NCBI GenBank assembly: GCA_016930775.1
Contig: JAFGGB010000102.1
Span: 1 to 39,825 of the forward strand
DNA length: 39,825 nt
DNA from: Deltaproteobacteria bacterium
GTDB taxonomy: Bacteria; Desulfobacterota; Syntrophia; Syntrophales; UBA2210
Direction: 5' to 3'
Each line of letters starts with the position of its first letter. The first letter of the stretch is position 1. Position numbers and translations under genes: made by a program. The notes beneath the pieces are model-generated. The model was not told the DNA's origin. It worked only from the letters and a program-made list of their open reading frames with translations, and did no database searches. Shown one piece after another: positions 13,938-39,272 of this stretch.

Positions 13938-13969
13938 TTGACAATGTAAAACAATATCCGATATATAGT
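13938..13969 (+). promoter_or_regulatory. Putative sigma70 promoter driving the LIV-operon leader
   Basis: TTGACA at 13938-13943 and overlapping -10 options in ATATATAGT (13961-13969; 17-20 bp spacing). Confidence 0.5.
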
Positions 13970-13972
13970 TAG

Positions 13973-14144
13973 ACACTATCATGGAAGGTTCATGAGATCG
14001 GCAATGTGCGGCAATAAGGCGACCGGATTTTTTAGCTTTTTCTTTTATTTTGAAGAGGTCTGCCTGCCGAGCTCATGACCCGTTGAAACAGTCGGAATGA
14101 GAGCCGTGGGCGGACCGAGAAGCCCACGGCTCTTTTTGTTTCAA
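13973..14144 (+). ncRNA. Candidate structured leader RNA/riboswitch-like element (class unrecognised)
   Basis: Long imperfect stem: GGTtCATGAG (13987-13996)/CTCATGACC (14072-14080), TCGGCA (13998-14003)/TGCCGA (14065-14070), GGCA (14010-14013)/TGCC (14061-14064), GACC (14021-14024)/GGTC (14057-14060); followed by an intrinsic terminator; ends about 55 nt before the downstream ATG. Confidence 0.5.
14101..14138 (+). terminator. Rho-independent terminator/attenuator upstream of the LIV operon
   Basis: Perfect 11-bp stem GAGCCGTGGGC (14101-14111)/GCCCACGGCTC (14122-14132) followed by TTTTT (14133-14137). Confidence 0.85.
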
Positions 14145-14198
14145 GAGCAAGGGTATCGCAACCGGATCCGTCCCACAGACTAATTGGAGGAGGTACAC

Positions 14199-15401
14199 AT
14201 GAAGCGTAGTTTGATGTATTTATGTGTCATGGTGGGCTGTATCGCAGGTCTTGCGGCGACAGCATCGGCAAAAACGGTAAAAATCGGGGCTGCCATGAAT
14301 CTTACAGGACCAGCCTCGACCTGGGGGCAGTACCATGCAAAGGGTCACCAGGACTATTTCGCTTATGTAAATGATGTTAAAGGAGGAGCGGCGGGAAACC
14401 ATTTGGAGCTTATCCTGGTGGACACCATGTACAAGGTTCCCGAGGCGGTGGCGACGGTCAGAAAATTTGCAATGAACGACAAGGTTGACATGATCGCAAC
14501 GTGGAGCGCCGGTGAAGGCATTGCTGCAAAACCGATCGTACAGCGATACAAGATACCGACGATTAACTATTCCACCAGCTGGGAAATTCTCCAGACGCCC
14601 TTAGATTACATGTATCTGCCCTTTGGCAGTTACGAACTGGATTGCTATGCCGTTCTTGAGTATATAAAGAGCATTCACGAGGGTGAGGCGCCGCCCAAGG
14701 TTGGACTCCTCACGTATAACAACGCTTACGGCCGATCAATCCACAAGCCGACTCAGGAGTACGCGCAAAAAAATAAAATTGAAATTGTCGGCATAGAAGA
14801 ATTCCCGGCAAAAACAGTTGACTTGACAACGGAACTCCTGAGACTCAGAAAGGCTGGAGCGGATTATGTGTTCATGCAGATGCTTCCCTCGGCGATAATT
14901 ACGGCCATGAAGTGTGCTGATCGCATTAAATACGAACCCAAATTTTTCGGAACCTGGACATCAACCGATCCTTCCTTTTTCGAGATGGGGAAGGGCATTA
15001 TTCGCGATCGTCTGAGGATACAGTTTCCCGGCTGTCTGCCGGTGGATGATGTGGAAGGAATGAAGCTGCTCAAGGAGCTGTGGCAACGTTATCAGACAGT
15101 CAAAGGGTTCGATGCCTCCTATTGGGAAGGAGTAGCCGTGGCGATGATAATGGAACGTTCAATAATCAGAGCTTCGGAGAAGTACGGTGCTGTGACATCT
15201 GAAACCATTAACAAAGCTATGGAATCATTTCAAAACGAGGATTTTGGAGGACTCATTCCGGCTGTCAGCTTCTCTCCGGATAATCACCAGGGTTCTTTCA
15301 CGGCGCGGATCGTTCAGGTCTATGAGGATGGTCGTTTCATACCTTTGACGAATTTTTTTGTTCCCGGCAAGGATGAGTTGAAAGTTATCGGAAACAAATG
15401 A
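14199..15401 (+). CDS. Branched-chain amino acid-type ABC transporter substrate-binding protein (LivJ/K-like)
   Basis: Signal peptide MKRSLMYLCVMVGCIAGLAATASA; KIGAAMNLTGPASTWGQYHAKGHQDYFAYVND; SD GGAGGAGG before ATG 14199. Confidence 0.92.
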   Translation: MKRSLMYLCVMVGCIAGLAATASAKTVKIGAAMNLTGPASTWGQYHAKGHQDYFAYVNDVKGGAAGNHLELILVDTMYKVPEAVATVRKFAMNDKVDMIATWSAGEGIAAKPIVQRYKIPTINYSTSWEILQTPLDYMYLPFGSYELDCYAVLEYIKSIHEGEAPPKVGLLTYNNAYGRSIHKPTQEYAQKNKIEIVGIEEFPAKTVDLTTELLRLRKAGADYVFMQMLPSAIITAMKCADRIKYEPKFFGTWTSTDPSFFEMGKGIIRDRLRIQFPGCLPVDDVEGMKLLKELWQRYQTVKGFDASYWEGVAVAMIMERSIIRASEKYGAVTSETINKAMESFQNEDFGGLIPAVSFSPDNHQGSFTARIVQVYEDGRFIPLTNFFVPGKDELKVIGNK

Positions 15402-16222
15402 AGGCATTTCGAGGACAGCCCAGCATTTTCGCCGAACGAGGCGAAAACAGCCAAGCCGATTTGACCGTGAAAGATCTGACGCTTCGATTCGGTGGCGTCG
15501 TAGCCCTCCGCAATGTCAGCATTGAAGTGCGGACGGGAGAACTGTTGGCGCTCATCGGACCAAACGGCGCCGGCAAGACTAGCCTCCTGAACTGTCTCAC
15601 AGGCTATTACCAGCCGCAGGAGGGTGCAATCTTCTTTAATGGCGAGGACATTACAACCTTGCCGACCCACGAACTGGTGGGCAGAGGTATCGGCAGAACT
15701 TTTCAAAACATAGAACTATTCCCGGGCATGTCGGTCCTCTCCAACATGCTTATGGCCCGGCATGTCCATAGCAATTACGGTCTTCCTGCGGCATTGTTTT
15801 TCTCGGGGGCCGTTCGGCGGGAAGAAGTGCGGCATCGTCGCATAGTCGAAGAAATCATGGACTTCCTGGAGATGCAGGGCATACGAAAAAAAGCAGTTGG
15901 TTCTTTGCCTTACGGGCTCAGAAAACGCGTAGAACTAGGGAGGGCGCTGGCGCTGGAGCCCAAACTTCTCGTGCTGGACGAGCCTTTTGCCGGCATGAAC
16001 CTTGAAGAAAAAGAGGATATGGTGCGCTTCCTCATGGAACTTCATGCCGCCTGGGGACAAACCATGATCCTCGTAGAACATGATATGTCCATAGTAATGA
16101 GCCTTTCAACACAGGTCGTCGTTCTTAATTTTGGGGAGAAGCTTGCCGAAGGAACGCCCGAGGAGGTTCAGAACAATCACGCTGTTGTTACGGCCTACCT
16201 GGGAACGGACATGATTATCTAA
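15398..16222 (+). CDS. ABC transporter ATP-binding protein (LivG-like)
   Basis: Walker A GPNGAGKTS, GIGRTFQNIELFPGMSVLSNMLMARH, LPYGLRKRVELGRAL signature, LLVLDEPFAGMN Walker B; ATGA overlap with the preceding gene. Confidence 0.95.
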   Translation: MKAFRGQPSIFAERGENSQADLTVKDLTLRFGGVVALRNVSIEVRTGELLALIGPNGAGKTSLLNCLTGYYQPQEGAIFFNGEDITTLPTHELVGRGIGRTFQNIELFPGMSVLSNMLMARHVHSNYGLPAALFFSGAVRREEVRHRRIVEEIMDFLEMQGIRKKAVGSLPYGLRKRVELGRALALEPKLLVLDEPFAGMNLEEKEDMVRFLMELHAAWGQTMILVEHDMSIVMSLSTQVVVLNFGEKLAEGTPEEVQNNHAVVTAYLGTDMII

Positions 16223-16250
16223 GAACTGTTGAGCGAGGCGTCTGATTTCA

Positions 16251-18230
16251 ATGGCGGATATGGCACGAGCGGAAGACCAATGCAAAGGCATCGAAGACGA
16301 GGCGTTGGCTCATCATACACTGCCCCAGATATTGGCTCTTCAGGCCGAACGATTAGGTCGCGGGCAGACAGCTCTCAGGAAAAAAGACTACGGCATTTGG
16401 AAAAGCTATTCATGGAGCGATTACCTTGAATTCACGCGATTGACAGCCCTGGGATTGAAGGCCCTGGGCTTCAATCGCGGAGACCGCCTCGCTATAATCA
16501 CCGACAATCATCCCGAGTGGCTCTTCAGTGAACTCGGCGCTCAATCCATGGGCGGCATTACGGTTAACCTGTTCACCTCATCCGTCAGCGATGAACTGGC
16601 GGGAATGCTGAACCGCACAGGGTCGGCCTTCGTAGTGGCCCAGGATCAGGAGCAGGTTGATAAGCTTCTGGATAAGCGGGATCGCCTCTGTCATGTAAAG
16701 AGAATTATATATATAGATAAAACGGGAATGAGGACCTATGAAGATGACTCGTGGCTCATGAGTTATCAGGAACTTCTCGAAGCAGGTCGCAAAAAGGGGA
16801 ATGAGGATTCGGAGCTTTTCTGCAAAGAACTCATGCAGGGCAGACCCGATGATAGCGCCCTCATGATCACGACCTCCGGAACAACCGGCGTTGCAAAACT
16901 CGCAATGCTTTCTCATAGCAATTTCACGGCAATAGCGTCAAGCTGGCTTGCTGTACTTGATCGACAATCCTGCAAAAACTGGTTTTCTATTTCTCCTCCG
17001 CCATGGATCGTCGATCAGATGTGGGGTATCGGCGTGGCCCTGCTCGGCGGCACGATTATGAACTTTCCCGAGACCGTGGAAACGATTACAGAAGATTTTC
17101 GAGAAATTGGGCCGAATGTTATAATAACTTCTTCGCGTTTCTGGGAGAACCTTGCATCGCAAATCCGTGTGAAAATTGCCGATGCGGGTTTCATTAACAA
17201 GTTGGTCTTCAGGCTTGCCGAAAAGATCGGCAACGCAGTGATCGATAATCAGTCAAGGGGACTGCCTGTTTCTTTCGGCCTCAGGATTGCCCACGGTTTA
17301 GCATCTATTGCACTCTACCGTCCCCTGCTGGATCGCATAGGCTGCGGCGCTGTCGTTTCGGCCTTTACGGGAGGCCATCCCATAAGTCCTGATGTAATCC
17401 GCTTTTTTCGGGCTATCGGACTTAATCTCAAGCAATGTTACGGGCTTACCGAAGCGTGCGGTATTTTCCAAGTGCAACCGGACAACGAAGTGAAAGACGA
17501 GACCGTTGGTCTCTCTCTCCCGGGAATTACAGTCAAAATATCCAGCGATCAAGAGGTTCTGGTGGGAGGAAGGAACATTTTCCGAGGATACTATAATGAT
17601 TTTGACGCCACACAGAAAGCCTTCGATGAGCAATGGCTGAAAACCGGCGATGCTGGCTATCTCGACGAAAACAATCATCTTGTGATAATCGGACGGAAGG
17701 AAGACATCATCAGAAATAAAGACGGCAGCGCTTTTTCTCCGGACTTCATTGAAACAAGGTTGAAGTTCAGCCCCTACATTCAAGAAGCTGTGACTTTTGG
17801 AGAAGGGAGAACTTTCATTACGGCCCTGATCAACATCGACATGGGCAACGTCGGCAGCTGGGCCGAAGATCAGATGATACCCTATACGACATACACGGAC
17901 CTCTCGCAGCAGACGGCCGTTGAAAATTTGATTCTTCAGGAGGTGCGGGAGGTAAACAAGCGTCTGCCCGTTCCAATGAGGATTAAGAAGTTCATCATCC
18001 TTTATAAACTCCTTGATGCCGACGATGAGGAGCTGACGAGAACGGGCAAGGTGAGGCGGCGGTTCGTTTACGGCCTGTATATTAAACTTATAGAAGCGAT
18101 GTACAATAACGAGGAGTCTGTTGCCGTAAAGGCTGTAATCAAGTATCGCGATGGTCAAGTCAACGTTCTCGAAACGATGGTAAAAATCGTCAACGTAGAA
18201 AGCGATCTCCCTCGGGAGAGTCAGGAGTAA
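16251..18230 (+). CDS. AMP-dependent synthetase/ligase (long-chain acyl-CoA synthetase-like)
   Basis: ALMITTSGTTGVAKLAMLSHSN (P-loop), QCYGLTEACGIF, WLKTGDAGYLDENNHLVIIGRKEDIIRNKDG. Confidence 0.93.
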   Translation: MADMARAEDQCKGIEDEALAHHTLPQILALQAERLGRGQTALRKKDYGIWKSYSWSDYLEFTRLTALGLKALGFNRGDRLAIITDNHPEWLFSELGAQSMGGITVNLFTSSVSDELAGMLNRTGSAFVVAQDQEQVDKLLDKRDRLCHVKRIIYIDKTGMRTYEDDSWLMSYQELLEAGRKKGNEDSELFCKELMQGRPDDSALMITTSGTTGVAKLAMLSHSNFTAIASSWLAVLDRQSCKNWFSISPPPWIVDQMWGIGVALLGGTIMNFPETVETITEDFREIGPNVIITSSRFWENLASQIRVKIADAGFINKLVFRLAEKIGNAVIDNQSRGLPVSFGLRIAHGLASIALYRPLLDRIGCGAVVSAFTGGHPISPDVIRFFRAIGLNLKQCYGLTEACGIFQVQPDNEVKDETVGLSLPGITVKISSDQEVLVGGRNIFRGYYNDFDATQKAFDEQWLKTGDAGYLDENNHLVIIGRKEDIIRNKDGSAFSPDFIETRLKFSPYIQEAVTFGEGRTFITALINIDMGNVGSWAEDQMIPYTTYTDLSQQTAVENLILQEVREVNKRLPVPMRIKKFIILYKLLDADDEELTRTGKVRRRFVYGLYIKLIEAMYNNEESVAVKAVIKYRDGQVNVLETMVKIVNVESDLPRESQE

Positions 18231-18232
18231 CA

Positions 18233-19111
18233 ATGGAGTTCTTTGTGCAGATTCTCATCAACGGTCTGAACATAGGCTTTCTGTACGGGCTGGCCGCCAT
18301 GGGATTTGTTATGATCTTCAAGTCTTCAAGTGTTCTAAATTTCGCCCACGGCGAACTTCTGGCCTTCGGCGCATTCTTTTTTTTGACGCTTGTTTCCGCT
18401 GCGAAGCTTCCTCTTCCCGTAGCCTTCATGGGGGCGCTGGCCCTCTGTTTCGCCCTTGGCTTCGTCGTGGAACGGATTTTTCTCCGGCCCCTTATTGGCG
18501 AACCTCTTATTTATGTCATTATGCTCACCGTGGGCTTGGCGTCAATTTTCAAAGGATTGATGCTGCTGGTCTGGGGAGGCAATCTCTATATGTTTCCGCC
18601 TATTCTCCCGGCGAAACTTTCAATTACGTTCGCAGGCATCACTATACCGCCCGTTTACCTTCTCTCTACTTCTATAGGCATCCTCTTTCTTATATTTTTT
18701 GGCCTCTTTTTCAAGTATTCCTCACAGGGCATCTATATGAGATCCGTGGCGGACAATCAATCGGCAGCTCTTTCTCTCGGCGTCCATGTACGCAGAGTCT
18801 TCGCCCTTTCATGGGCTATCGCAGCTCTTGTGGCAGGCATGAGCGGCATCGTTCTGGGCATAATAAACGGCGTCAATGTACACGATCTCTCTTCCATCGG
18901 ACTTAAGGTATTTCCCGTCGTTATTCTTGGCGGACTCGACAGCATCGGCGGCGCCATTCTGGGCGGTGTCATAATAGGTCTTCTCGAAAGCTTTACGGGC
19001 GGTTATTTATCTGCTTCGCTGAAAGACGTTGTTCCCTATATGGCTCTGATCGTAATTCTCATTATAAGACCATACGGCCTTTTCGGCCTTGTCGAAATAG
19101 AAAGAGTCTGA
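18233..19111 (+). CDS. Branched-chain amino acid-type ABC transporter permease (LivH-like)
   Basis: Multi-TM; NGLNIGFLYGLAAMGFVMIFKSSSVLNFAHGELLAFGAF, FPVVILGGLDSIGGAILGGVIIGLLE. Confidence 0.94.
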   Translation: MEFFVQILINGLNIGFLYGLAAMGFVMIFKSSSVLNFAHGELLAFGAFFFLTLVSAAKLPLPVAFMGALALCFALGFVVERIFLRPLIGEPLIYVIMLTVGLASIFKGLMLLVWGGNLYMFPPILPAKLSITFAGITIPPVYLLSTSIGILFLIFFGLFFKYSSQGIYMRSVADNQSAALSLGVHVRRVFALSWAIAALVAGMSGIVLGIINGVNVHDLSSIGLKVFPVVILGGLDSIGGAILGGVIIGLLESFTGGYLSASLKDVVPYMALIVILIIRPYGLFGLVEIERV

Positions 19112-19128
19112 GGAAGGTATCTTTCTTA

Positions 19129-20199
19129 ATGAAATCATTTCACTTCAGGCCGTGCGGCAATTTAAAGGAACGCTACGACGAGGAACTGAGAATTTTCGAA
19201 ACGGATTTCGGGCGCGCCGCTGCAATCATTGGAGGTCTTCTTTTCTTCTCCGCGGCGACGTTGCTCTGCGGTTCATATATTGTATACATTTTTAATATTA
19301 TAGCTATTTCATCCATAGGCGCCCTTGGCCTCAATATTCTTGTGGGTTTCACAGGGCAGATATCCTTGGGCCACGGAGCTTTTTTTGGCGTTGGCGCCTA
19401 TGGTGCGGCCGTCCTTGCCACGAGATTCGGGATTCCCTTTATTTTCGCAGTACCTGCGGCGGGATTCATTGCTGCCGTGGCAGGTATGATTTTCGGCATT
19501 CCCTCAGGACGACTCAAAGGATTATATCTAACCATCGCCACGCTGGCTGGTCAGTTTATCATCGAGTACCTCTTGGTTCATTGGGAGAGCCTAACACAAG
19601 GCACGATGGGCATTATTTTACCTGAACCGCAATTATTCGGGATCTCTGTGGTTGATGACCGCCGATTCTTTTTCGTCGTTTTTGTGATACTCATCATAAT
19701 GATCCTTATGACCTCGCATTTAATGCGCACTCGTTATGGCCGGGCTTTTATCGCCATCCGTGACAACGATAGGGCGGCAGAGGGCATGGGAATTCCTGTC
19801 TTTCGCTACAAAATCCTTTCCTTCGGCATCAGTTCCTATTATGCGGGGTGCGCCGGCGCACTCTGGGCCTACTACATGACAAGCATAACGGCGGAACCTT
19901 TCAATGTGGGTCTTTCAGTTGAATATATTGCCATGGTGATAATCGGAGGATTAGGCTCCATCGCCGGGTCGGTTTTCGGCGCAGCCTTTATTGTAGTTCT
20001 GAGTGAGACCCTTCGTTGGCTTACAGACACGATCATGAGCCTGTCAATCATTCAGGGCATGGAACTGACACTGGCGGCAATCAGGGAGCTGGTCTTCGGC
20101 CTCTCGATAGTTCTCTTTATAATATTTGAGCCAAGAGGACTTGCGGAAGTATGGCGGATAGTTCGTTCGAACTTCAGACTCTGGCCTTTTTCATATTGA
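19129..20199 (+). CDS. Branched-chain amino acid-type ABC transporter permease (LivM-like)
   Basis: ALGLNILVGFTGQISLGHGAFFGVGAYGAA, RYGRAFIAIRDNDRAAEGMGI, GGLGSIAGSVFGAAFIVVL. Confidence 0.95.
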   Translation: MKSFHFRPCGNLKERYDEELRIFETDFGRAAAIIGGLLFFSAATLLCGSYIVYIFNIIAISSIGALGLNILVGFTGQISLGHGAFFGVGAYGAAVLATRFGIPFIFAVPAAGFIAAVAGMIFGIPSGRLKGLYLTIATLAGQFIIEYLLVHWESLTQGTMGIILPEPQLFGISVVDDRRFFFVVFVILIIMILMTSHLMRTRYGRAFIAIRDNDRAAEGMGIPVFRYKILSFGISSYYAGCAGALWAYYMTSITAEPFNVGLSVEYIAMVIIGGLGSIAGSVFGAAFIVVLSETLRWLTDTIMSLSIIQGMELTLAAIRELVFGLSIVLFIIFEPRGLAEVWRIVRSNFRLWPFSY

Positions 20200-20259
20200 A
20201 AAGACCGGATTTTGAATATAACTGCAGAGAGTGCATGCTCGAAAGACAATATAAATGCA

Positions 20260-21063
20260 ATGAACGATAAACCTTTACTTCAAGTAAACAATATAAGCGT
20301 GGTTTATGCCGATGTAATCCAGGTACTCAAAGGAGTATCGCTAGCGGTAAAAAGGCACCAGATCGTTTCCCTGCTGGGCAGCAATGGCGCTGGCAAAACC
20401 ACATCCCTCAAGGCAATATCGGGACTCCTGAAGCCCGAAAACGGCAAAGTTACCGAGGGCACAATACTGTATAACGGAGACAATATCCAGAACAAGGCCC
20501 CAGAAGACATTACGAGAAAGGGCATTATACAAGTCTTGGAAGGACGACAACCCTTCAAGTATCTTACCATCGAGGAAAATCTCCGTGTTGGAACGGCCAC
20601 AAGATGGGGAAAGCCTTACCGGGAGGATCTGGATATGATCTACGAATATTTCCCCGCACTGGTGCCGCGCCGGAAGTCCATGGCCGGTTACTGCAGCGGT
20701 GGTGAACTGCAGATGCTCGTGATGGGTCGCGCATTGATGGCGCATCCCGATTTGCTCCTCCTCGATGAACCCTCCCTGGGACTCGCACCTCTCGTTGTGA
20801 AGGAAATATTCAAAATCATCAAACAGATAAATGAAGAGCAGGGGACGACGATTATTCTTGTTGAACAGAACGCGAATATGGCTCTCCAGATCGCTCACTT
20901 CGGATACGTTATGGAAAATGGTAAAATCGTCATGGAGGGTGAATCGAAGGAGCTTAAGGAGAATCCGGATGTTAAGGATTTCTATCTGGGGATGGGAACG
21001 AGGGGCGATACGAACTCCTACCGTGATGTAAAGGCCTATAAACGAAGGAAGAGGTGGTTGTGA
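20260..21063 (+). CDS. ABC transporter ATP-binding protein (LivF-like)
   Basis: LLQVNNISVVYADVIQVLKGVSLAV, GSNGAGKTTSLKAISG, YCSGGELQMLVMGRALMAHPDLLLLDEPSLGLAP; start assigned to MNDKPLL. Confidence 0.94.
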   Translation: MNDKPLLQVNNISVVYADVIQVLKGVSLAVKRHQIVSLLGSNGAGKTTSLKAISGLLKPENGKVTEGTILYNGDNIQNKAPEDITRKGIIQVLEGRQPFKYLTIEENLRVGTATRWGKPYREDLDMIYEYFPALVPRRKSMAGYCSGGELQMLVMGRALMAHPDLLLLDEPSLGLAPLVVKEIFKIIKQINEEQGTTIILVEQNANMALQIAHFGYVMENGKIVMEGESKELKENPDVKDFYLGMGTRGDTNSYRDVKAYKRRKRWL

Positions 21064-21083
21064 GAGGAGGAAAGGAGAGGGGT

Positions 21084-22331
21084 ATGGCGAGTATTTTCTT
21101 TGAGGAAAGGGAGGGTCGACCAAGAGAGCAACGACGGACCGAGCATAACCGTCGCCTCTCAGAAATGGTGAGGGCAGGCTATGAGAACGCTTCGAGAGTG
21201 CAACAAATCTTTAAAAGCCGATCCCTCACACCGAGCGATGTCGCAACGTTGGAAGATCTCGAAAGACTCCCCGTTATCTCGCGGGAGCAGGTGGCGGAAT
21301 ATGAGCGACAAGCGCCTCCCTTCGGAGGATTTGCCCGGAAAGATCTAACATTCGAACGGATATTCACGTCACCCGGTCCCATCTACGAACCTCATCTCAC
21401 GGAATCCAGCCTTTGGACGGCGGGATATCATGCCGCCGGTTTCACTGAAGGGGATGTGGTCCTTAACACCTTTTCATATCATCTCGTAGCGGCTGGCCTG
21501 ACATTTCATGAAGGTCTTCGCGCCTGTGGCGCGACAGTAGTGCCATCCGGAACATCTAATACGGAAATACAGGTTCAACTTCTGAAAGATCTTGGAGTTA
21601 CCGGTTTCGTAGGAACCCCCAGTTTTCTGAAGGCGATCATCGCTAAAGCCGAAGAAAAAGGTTTAGATATCGCAAAAGATTTCTACCTGAGAAAGGCAAG
21701 TTTTGTGGCGGAACCCCTGGAGCCGTCACTTCGGACCATATTTGAAGAGAGATACGGCATCGACACCTATCAGATGTATGGCGCTACGGAAGTTGGCGAC
21801 ATTGCGTTCGAATGTGCAGAAAAAAAGGGCTGGCACATAGTCGAAGACGCCGTTGTTGAGATTGTCGATCCCGACACCGGACGATCCATGAAAGAGGGAA
21901 CTCTCGGCGAAGTGGTTGTTACGCGCCTGAACAACATTTTTTTTCTCTTTCGCTTCGGTACGGGAGATCTTTCTTCGATTATTGAAGAACAATGTCCCTG
22001 CGGACGAACTTCCCTGAGGCTCAGCGGCATTCACGGACGTTGCGGAGACGCCGTGAAAATACGGGGGCTTTTCATTGCGCCGAGCCAGCTGAACAACATA
22101 AAAAAACACTTTAAGAATATCAAGTATCAACTTGTTATTGATAGGAAATCTTTTAAGGATTATCTGACGGTTGCGCTTGAAGGACCCACTATTGATGATA
22201 TGATTGTCAAAAGCTTTACCGATCGATTTGCCACGGAATGTACTGTCAGGATTGACGAGATATCCATCGTATCTCCTGGTTCAATAGCAGACAGCGCTCC
22301 TTTGATCGTCGATAGAAGGTCCTGGGATTAA
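21084..22331 (+). CDS. Phenylacetate-CoA ligase-like AMP-binding enzyme (PaaK family)
   Basis: LEDLERLPVISREQVAEYE, YQMYGATEVGDIAFECAEKKGWHIVEDAVVEIVDP, CPCGRTSLRLSGIHGRCGDAVKIRGLFIAPSQL; strong purine-rich SD before ATG 21084. Confidence 0.88.
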   Translation: MASIFFEEREGRPREQRRTEHNRRLSEMVRAGYENASRVQQIFKSRSLTPSDVATLEDLERLPVISREQVAEYERQAPPFGGFARKDLTFERIFTSPGPIYEPHLTESSLWTAGYHAAGFTEGDVVLNTFSYHLVAAGLTFHEGLRACGATVVPSGTSNTEIQVQLLKDLGVTGFVGTPSFLKAIIAKAEEKGLDIAKDFYLRKASFVAEPLEPSLRTIFEERYGIDTYQMYGATEVGDIAFECAEKKGWHIVEDAVVEIVDPDTGRSMKEGTLGEVVVTRLNNIFFLFRFGTGDLSSIIEEQCPCGRTSLRLSGIHGRCGDAVKIRGLFIAPSQLNNIKKHFKNIKYQLVIDRKSFKDYLTVALEGPTIDDMIVKSFTDRFATECTVRIDEISIVSPGSIADSAPLIVDRRSWD

Positions 22332-37460: not shown

Positions 37461-39272
37461 ATGATTGTTAAGGAATTGTTGTCAGGGAACGAAGCTATTG
37501 CCAGGGGTGCTTTAGAATGTGGCGTCGCATTCGGCGCCGGCTACCCTGGGACGCCCAGTACGGAAATACTTGAAGCCTTCGCGAAATATGAAGGAGTTTA
37601 TGCAGAGTGGGCCCCAAATGAGAAGGTAGCCCTTGAAACGGCCATTGGCGCCTCTCTTGCCGGCGTCCGGGCCATTGCTGTAATGAAACATGTGGGTGTG
37701 AACGTTGCAGCCGACCCTCTCTTCACGGTGAGTTATACGGGCGTCAGAGGCGGTTTAGTTATAGTCACGGCCGATGATCCATCTATGCACAGCTCGCAGA
37801 ACGAGCAGGACAACAGGAATTATGCGCGATTTGCCAAAATTCCCATGATCGAACCGGCGGACAGTCAAGAGGCCAAGGACTTCGTGCGCCTGGCTTTTGA
37901 GATCAGCGAGAGATTCGATACGCCTGTTTTCCTCAGATCAACCACGAGAGTTTCCCACTCAAAGTCAGTAACGACTATCGCAGAACCGGACAAGCCAGGA
38001 GGCAACGCGTCTGTCCTTCGAAATCCCGAGAAATATGTCATGGTGCCTGCCATGGCCCGCCTTCGGCGAATAGAAGTTGAAAAACGAATGGCTGCACTGG
38101 CTGAATATGCCGAAACGTTCCATGAAAACAAGGTGGAATTCAACGACCTTAAAATTGGCATCATATCTTCCGGCATGCCGTACAATTATGCCAAGGATGC
38201 CTTCCCGAAAGCATCGTTTCTGAAGCTAGGCATGGTCTATCCTCTTCCCGTTCAGATGATAAGGGATTTCGCATCGGCCGTGGAGAACCTCTATGTTGTA
38301 GAAGAACTGGATCCCTTCTTCGAAGACCAGATCAAGGCTCTCGGAATTGAGGTGAGGGGCAAGACTCTGCTTCCCCGTACCAACGAATTCGATCCCACGA
38401 TAGTTTGTACGTCACTTTCTTCAGGAGAAAAGGCGACGCGAGAAGCGCCGCCTGATATTTCTATTCCTCCGAGACCGCCCAACCTCTGCCCGGGTTGTCC
38501 TCATCGAGGCCTTTTCTACGTTGCCGGAAAGCTGGATGCCTTCGTGGCCGGCGATATCGGGTGCTACACCCTGTCATACATGAAACCATTGCGAGGTCTT
38601 GATTCCTGTATATGCATGGGCGCCAGTTTCGGTATGGCCCATGGTATGAGCAAGGCTTTGGGATCGAAAGGAAAGGGGAGGGTAATCGGCGTCATCGGTG
38701 ATTCCACATTTGTGCATTCAGGCATTACGCCCCTCTTGAATGCCTCCTACAATAAGAGCGATGCTCTGTTTATTATCTGCGATAACGCTACAACAGCCAT
38801 GACGGGAATGCAGGACCACCCCGGCACCGGTCGCACTCTCCAGGGGCTGCCGTCGTACAGGATCGATTTCATTCAACTCGCACAGGCGCTTGGCATTGAG
38901 GATGTCCACACTGTCAATCCTTTCAACATTTCCGAAACGAAAGAGATCCTCAAAGCTTCCCTGGAAAGGGAAGGGCCTTCTCTCGTTATATCCAAGGAAC
39001 CCTGCGCACTACTCAAAACGCAAAAGAAAAAAGCCCGTCGCCCGCTGATGGTGGATATTGACAAATGTATAGGCTGTAAACTCTGTCTCGGCCTCAATTG
39101 TCCGCCCATATCATGGAAGAATGTGACGGGAGGCTTCGATGGTCCGCTTACAGCCCAAGGGAAACCTCGCAAGGGTTTCGCCGTGATCGACAGCGCCCTC
39201 TGCAATGGTTGCAGTCTCTGCATGCAAGTCTGTTCCGCAAAGGCCATCAAGGAGGTTGTAGCAAATGGATGA
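37461..39272 (+). CDS. iorA: Indolepyruvate ferredoxin oxidoreductase, alpha subunit
   Basis: LLSGNEAIARGALECGVAFGAGYPGTPSTEI, NLCPGCPHRGLFY, GDIGCYTL, TPP-binding region, C-terminal ferredoxin cysteines CIGCKLC...CNGCSLC. Confidence 0.97.
   Translation: MIVKELLSGNEAIARGALECGVAFGAGYPGTPSTEILEAFAKYEGVYAEWAPNEKVALETAIGASLAGVRAIAVMKHVGVNVAADPLFTVSYTGVRGGLVIVTADDPSMHSSQNEQDNRNYARFAKIPMIEPADSQEAKDFVRLAFEISERFDTPVFLRSTTRVSHSKSVTTIAEPDKPGGNASVLRNPEKYVMVPAMARLRRIEVEKRMAALAEYAETFHENKVEFNDLKIGIISSGMPYNYAKDAFPKASFLKLGMVYPLPVQMIRDFASAVENLYVVEELDPFFEDQIKALGIEVRGKTLLPRTNEFDPTIVCTSLSSGEKATREAPPDISIPPRPPNLCPGCPHRGLFYVAGKLDAFVAGDIGCYTLSYMKPLRGLDSCICMGASFGMAHGMSKALGSKGKGRVIGVIGDSTFVHSGITPLLNASYNKSDALFIICDNATTAMTGMQDHPGTGRTLQGLPSYRIDFIQLAQALGIEDVHTVNPFNISETKEILKASLEREGPSLVISKEPCALLKTQKKKARRPLMVDIDKCIGCKLCLGLNCPPISWKNVTGGFDGPLTAQGKPRKGFAVIDSALCNGCSLCMQVCSAKAIKEVVANG

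Follow-up and report, generated by a model that had tools for sequence, protein, structure and literature searches.

Between the hflK-hflC genes and an operon for a LIV-type transporter and acyl-CoA ligases, a Syntrophales genome carries an RNA leader that raises a simple question: what does it sense, and by which part of the RNA? The window analysed here is a stretch of 39,825 nucleotides (GenBank assembly GCA_016930775.1, contig JAFGGB010000102.1). A reading of the sequence alone had left open a candidate riboswitch or an attenuator; the attenuator has held, whereas a riboswitch of unrecognised class is unsupported. Most probably (about 0.93), the leader is a ribosome-mediated transcription attenuator placed before the operon to sense charged tRNA-Phe. 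At the sequence level, this assignment is supported by an open reading frame (ORF), its codon run, two mutually exclusive pairings, and conservation. The features are as follows.

13938-13943, plus strand: promoter -35 box TTGACA, from the sequence
13961-13967, plus strand: promoter -10 box ATATAT/TATATA, from the sequence
13983-13988, plus strand: possible Shine-Dalgarno GGAAGG, from the sequence, with non-ideal spacing for ATG 13992 and ATG 14004
13987-14010, plus strand: region 1, an upstream arm able to sequester region 2 in untranslated RNA, from the window fold
13992-14078, plus strand: leader-peptide ORF in its longest reading, MRSAMCGNKATGFFSFFFYFEEVCLPSS*, from translations and homologous ORFs in relatives
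14004-14078, plus strand: shorter reading of the leader ORF from ATG 14004, stop TGA at 14076-14078
14028-14051, plus strand: regulatory codons TTT TTT AGC TTT TTC TTT TAT TTT (6 Phe, 1 Tyr, 1 Ser)
14057-14064, plus strand: region 2, GGUCUGCC, antiterminator 5' strand within the leader ORF, from alignment, pairing counts, and folds
14101-14116, plus strand: region 3, GAGCCGUGGGCGGACC, common to antiterminator and terminator, from alignment, pairing counts, and folds
14122-14137, plus strand: region 4, GCCCACGGCUC plus U5, terminator 3' arm and U tract, from stem covariation and folds
14199-15401, plus strand: LIV-type periplasmic substrate-binding protein, the first controlled gene (Pfam PF13458, 146 bits)
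15398-22331, plus strand: remaining operon, encoding LivG, a FadD-like acyl-CoA ligase, LivH, LivM, LivF, and a PaaK-like ligase, in the same order in relatives

The promoter proposed earlier, TTGACA at 13938 with an AT-rich -10, was found at these coordinates. Its TTGAC box lies at about -119 from region 2 and recurs in 48/48 homologous leaders, where about 6 are expected by shuffling; the window promoter was absent from the output of a strict consensus scan. The U-rich loop that had been described as capping an upstream stem exists (14028-14051) but is in fact the Phe-codon run of a short ORF. This ORF possibly starts at 13992 or at 14004. Its translation is given as MCGNKATGFFSFFFYFEEVCLPSS*, and the short-start peptide reads MCGNKATG-FFSFFFYF-EEVCLPSS, with six Phe within eight codons. 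When the leader was Markov-shuffled 5000 times, a single shuffle produced a closed ORF that begins with ATG and has six or more Phe within eight codons.

Downstream of the codon run, two structures compete for the same letters. The perfect 11-bp stem with a U5 tail is present as described earlier (14101-14111/14122-14132, then U5 at 14133-14137). The main helix of the antiterminator pairs GGUCUGCC (14057-14064) with GGGCGGACC (14108-14116), which also belongs to the terminator 5' arm, and the helix continues through 14065-14067 and GCUC 14071-14074. CTCAT (14072-14076) and the two ATGAG copies (13992-13996 and 14097-14101) were located as reported, and the proposed switch, in which CTCAT pairs either into the upstream stem or with the 5' side of the terminator, proved real and makes up the inner portion of the antiterminator. 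The whole leader folds better than 200/200 dinucleotide shuffles (z -3.8), with the terminator as the main contributor. The upstream stem and the terminator, both proposed from the sequence, form in the folds; the terminator stands out, while the upstream stem on its own is unremarkable against shuffles (z -1.25). Two further proposals, an outer pairing of TTGAAACA (14083-14090) with TGTTTCAA (14137-14144) and a TCGG/CCGA pseudoknot, correspond to complementarity that is present in the window but, judged by eye, does not recur in the alignments of relatives, and both were dropped.

Ribosome states were modelled by removing the ribosome footprint from the window RNA before folding. Without a ribosome, the model shows the 1:2 pairing plus the terminator. 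When the ribosome is placed on the first Phe codon, as in a stall, the antiterminator is the minimum free energy (MFE) structure (-31.0 kcal/mol) and remains so when region 4 is included (-36.5 kcal/mol); when it is placed on the stop codon, the terminator forms (-27.2 kcal/mol). On pair counts and these state folds, the position of the ribosome is predicted to choose between the mutually exclusive antiterminator and terminator.

From these elements we infer translation of the leader ORF, stalling of the ribosome, and a response to Phe-tRNA, in the following sequence of events. RNA polymerase would start near 13974 and then transcribe the leader ORF of 24-28 codons with its six Phe codons. When Phe-tRNA is scarce, the ribosome would stall among the Phe codons, leaving region 2 (14057-14064) to pair with region 3 (14108-14116), and the terminator would be blocked; the antiterminator thus formed would allow transcription of the LIV/acyl-CoA-ligase operon. 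When Phe-tRNA is plentiful, the ribosome would reach the stop codon at 14076 and cover region 2, so that region 3 would pair with region 4 and transcription would stop near 14137. If translation is absent, the upstream arm could hold region 2, and termination would likewise follow.

Homologous leaders came from two sources. A DNA search against 60 genomes, one of them the window's own, matched 26; a pattern that omitted the Phe run picked up 33 stretches among GTDB species genomes. Nearly all of the latter are labelled Syntrophales, Syntrophaceae, Syntrophobacterales, or Deltaproteobacteria; one from an Opitutaceae genome (L077) looks like a chance match and was set aside. In nearly all relatives, a Phe-rich ORF with an EVCLLSS-type ending lies just 5' of the same LIV-type binding-protein gene. 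Forty-eight distinct homologous leaders were compared; the elements that recur among them are the Phe run, the position of the stop, the -35 box, the antiterminator, and the terminator, and the stop codon keeps a constant offset from region 2 in 42/48. Phe averages 5.4 per 12 codons in the ORF frame, while the two remaining frames average 2.5 and 3.0, and the third frame is closed by stops in 45/48. The sequence 5' of the Phe codons shows no conservation in the alignment of relatives.

The expectation that the stems would covary in relatives was borne out for the terminator, which is 93.5% paired in a 32-sequence alignment and whose double-changed cells exceed each of 500 shuffles; it was not borne out for region 2, which is invariant, or for the 1:2 pairing, which is weakly supported in relatives. 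In the same alignment, pairing reaches 94.6% for the antiterminator (GGUCUGCC/GGGCRGACC plus GCUC/GAGC), compared with 31-45% when it is slid. Region 2 does not vary across the 32 rows, most of which were collected with its motif as anchor, and because of this invariance the antiterminator has zero double compensatory changes in that alignment. Before region 4 is made, the antiterminator is the MFE structure in 44/48 leaders, against 195/960 with the region 3 letters shuffled. Once region 4 is present, the equilibrium fold favours the terminator in 37/48 homologues even with a ribosome upstream; kinetics would therefore have to matter in those homologues.

The same architecture is also found before other genes. 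A covariance model that begins at region 2, ends with the first terminator, and leaves out the codon run matches 148/155 genomes of the order and 178/395 drawn from the phylum (E <= 0.01), with ordinary terminators included among the weak matches. Codon runs were read individually in strong and middle-rank matches, and in the sibling leaders examined there the run follows the downstream gene:

Trp run, before trpE and trpD
Phe/Tyr/Trp run, before aroF and aroK
Val run, before ilvB
Phe run, before a lone acyl-CoA ligase (PRK06187-like)

For downstream genes outside the LIV operon, the names rest mainly on N-terminal sequences, that of aroF also on a nearby prephenate dehydratase, and rows such as L099, L102, and L106, for which the wrong strand was shown, were left out. 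The correspondence between codon identity and downstream gene is clear for the trpE, aroF, and ilvB siblings; for the LIV/ligase operon, we infer the link to Phe. As individual cases, L221, L222, L224, L226, and L231 are Val-run leaders with the same attenuator layout 5' of ilvB-like acetolactate synthase genes, and L225 (G038:C15) is a Phe-rich leader 5' of a 494-aa ORF. Outside the window's order, L132 and L137 have short ORFs ending FFFF, followed by region 2 and LIV-type binding-protein genes, and L153 has a short ORF ending FFFF 5' of region 2 with a candidate LIV-type gene downstream.

In relatives, the binding-protein orthologue follows the leader, and most of them keep the order SBP-LivG-FadD-LivH-LivM-LivF-PaaK, often flanked by hflC on the upstream and recJ on the downstream side; a few lack PaaK in the operon. 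The chances seem about even that the products of the operon take up phenylacetate or a different aryl acid and activate it with CoA, and that indolepyruvate-type ferredoxin oxidoreductases then carboxylate it to phenylpyruvate. Reductive carboxylation of an aryl acid to phenylpyruvate for Phe synthesis would make Phe shortage a sensible signal. This reading derives from the Phe leader on the transporter and ligases, the Phe leader on lone ligases, and the Trp leader on IorAB, as well as from a route reported for a methanogen in the source cited below.

The oxidoreductase link begins with the window genome's second-best covariance-model match (E 0.003), which precedes a paralogue of IorA (indolepyruvate:ferredoxin oxidoreductase alpha subunit) and encodes the leader peptide MCGKQTILWRWWRIYRSGRSVHCR* with a Trp run. 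The order PaaK-type ligase, Trp-codon leader with terminator, iorA, iorB is found in the window genome (G000:C116; locus L166 1711-5637 and L176), and the Trp-run leader precedes one IorA subtype in 10/11 relatives having that subtype. Another IorA lies in the window itself (37461-39269), about 23 kb 3' of the leader, and has no such leader in the 400 bases upstream; in several relatives, an IorA is located at a similar distance from the leader, about 22-31 kb. According to PMC4162585, citing Porat 2004, Methanococcus maripaludis makes aromatic amino acids from aryl acids through indolepyruvate oxidoreductase. This route would explain aryl-acid uptake, an aryl-CoA ligase, and IorAB under Phe/Trp control; it is reported for the methanogen, whereas for these bacteria it is suggested by leaders and genes. 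Elsewhere, IorAB has been interpreted as a catabolic (fermentation) enzyme (PMC5817080). Prephenate dehydratase, prephenate dehydrogenase, and CM_2 chorismate mutase were not found in the window genome (assembly 96.9% complete), and one of its DAHP-synthase genes is cut by a contig end. The missing Phe/Tyr-pathway genes are suggestive but may reflect an assembly gap; given this completeness, the cut gene, and the prephenate dehydratase present in most relatives, their absence was set aside as evidence.

A different substrate under the same Phe attenuator is a real contender, if somewhat short of an even chance: the operon could import phenylalanine itself or some other compound, and its CoA ligases could act on fatty acids or on acids of another kind. 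Amino acids are common substrates of LIV-type transporters, the sequences in the PDB nearest to the binding protein are distant amino-acid or LIV-type binders, and both the FadD-like and the PaaK-like ligase fall far short of the curated cut-off for any one equivalog. However, Phe leaders are also found where an acyl-CoA ligase stands alone, with no transporter, and Trp leaders lie before IorAB, which together point to aryl-CoA chemistry.

The genes on the other side of the leader suggest a further explanation, namely that the hairpin merely ends hflKC transcription or belongs to a stand-alone terminated sRNA, with the operon starting downstream of 14144. Indeed, hflK-hflC lies directly upstream here, and hflC does so in many relatives. 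Yet the TTGAC box stands between hflC and the leader, here as in all 48 homologues, the same leader precedes genes without an hflC match in the fetched DNA, and conservation of region 2 and of the Phe ORF would then be unexpected. For the sRNA, which had been raised from the sequence, the leader's link to the same class of gene and the conserved ORF and codon logic across paralogous leaders speak against it, and either version is improbable. Least probable is a new class of metabolite riboswitch in the 5' stem acting on the terminator: the window does have a stable upstream stem and mutually exclusive pairings, but no conserved aptamer, a 5' part unconserved in sequence, no Rfam match, and paralogues whose codon content tracks the downstream pathway. 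The sensor in place of the proposed ligand-responsive aptamer would be the ribosome translating Phe codons.

The earlier failure to recognise a known riboswitch class agrees with the Rfam covariance models (Phe_leader included), which gave 0 matches at gathering, both for the window and for 20 related loci. Two sub-threshold, unrelated matches occur in the window; a minus-strand ar14 match (23.6 bits versus a gathering threshold of 58.8) was taken as a chance hit on the terminator hairpin. The family is absent from Rfam, and no earlier report of these leaders was found in the open-access papers searched.

Returning to the Phe attenuator, its closest functional counterparts are the enterobacterial Phe leaders of pheA and pheST (Rfam Phe_leader), with a short ORF, clustered Phe codons, exclusive antiterminator and terminator, and a U tract. 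By all sequence tests the window leader would work in the same way. Unlike them, it has no sequence match to the Rfam models, its region 2 lies within the ORF, and the operon it is predicted to govern encodes a transporter and acyl-CoA ligases instead of prephenate dehydratase or Phe-tRNA synthetase. With the trp, aroF-type, and ilv leaders of the order and phylum, found before trpE, trpD, aroF, aroK, and ilvB, it has the region 2/region 3 layout in common, whereas their codon runs differ from its Phe run. The codon run of a leader reveals the amino acid whose supply a cell checks before it uses a gene. In this case, the Phe run would tie a transporter/acyl-CoA-ligase operon to phenylalanine, and a sibling would tie indolepyruvate oxidoreductase to tryptophan. 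In this mostly uncultured group, the direction of the oxidoreductase (biosynthetic or fermentative) and the substrate of the operon become directly testable.

The window leader departs from most of its relatives, and from many trp, aroF, and ilv siblings, in lacking a second terminator, that is, a further hairpin and U tract before the gene. A strict detector found one in 38/72 LIV leaders. Its 5' arm is complementary to region 4 (4:5 pairing; -14.0 versus -7.2 kcal/mol with the arm shuffled), with a few coordinated changes, but the leaders' own 4:5 pairs do not clearly outscore arms from other gene classes. The complementarity is suggestive of a pairing that would couple the two terminators in relatives. 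Tandem terminators with an antiterminator are also described for the rimP leader (Naville and Gautheret 2010, PMC2965389), which serves a different gene and for which that paper describes no leader-peptide system. Tentatively, these features could be combined into a wider scheme of aryl-acid salvage by attenuation, in which Phe leaders would control phenylacetate uptake and CoA activation, Trp leaders would control a carboxylating IorAB, and the second terminator of relatives would act as a relay (2:3 with 4:5, or 3:4 with 5:6). Contrary to most relatives, L024, like the window, has no second terminator.
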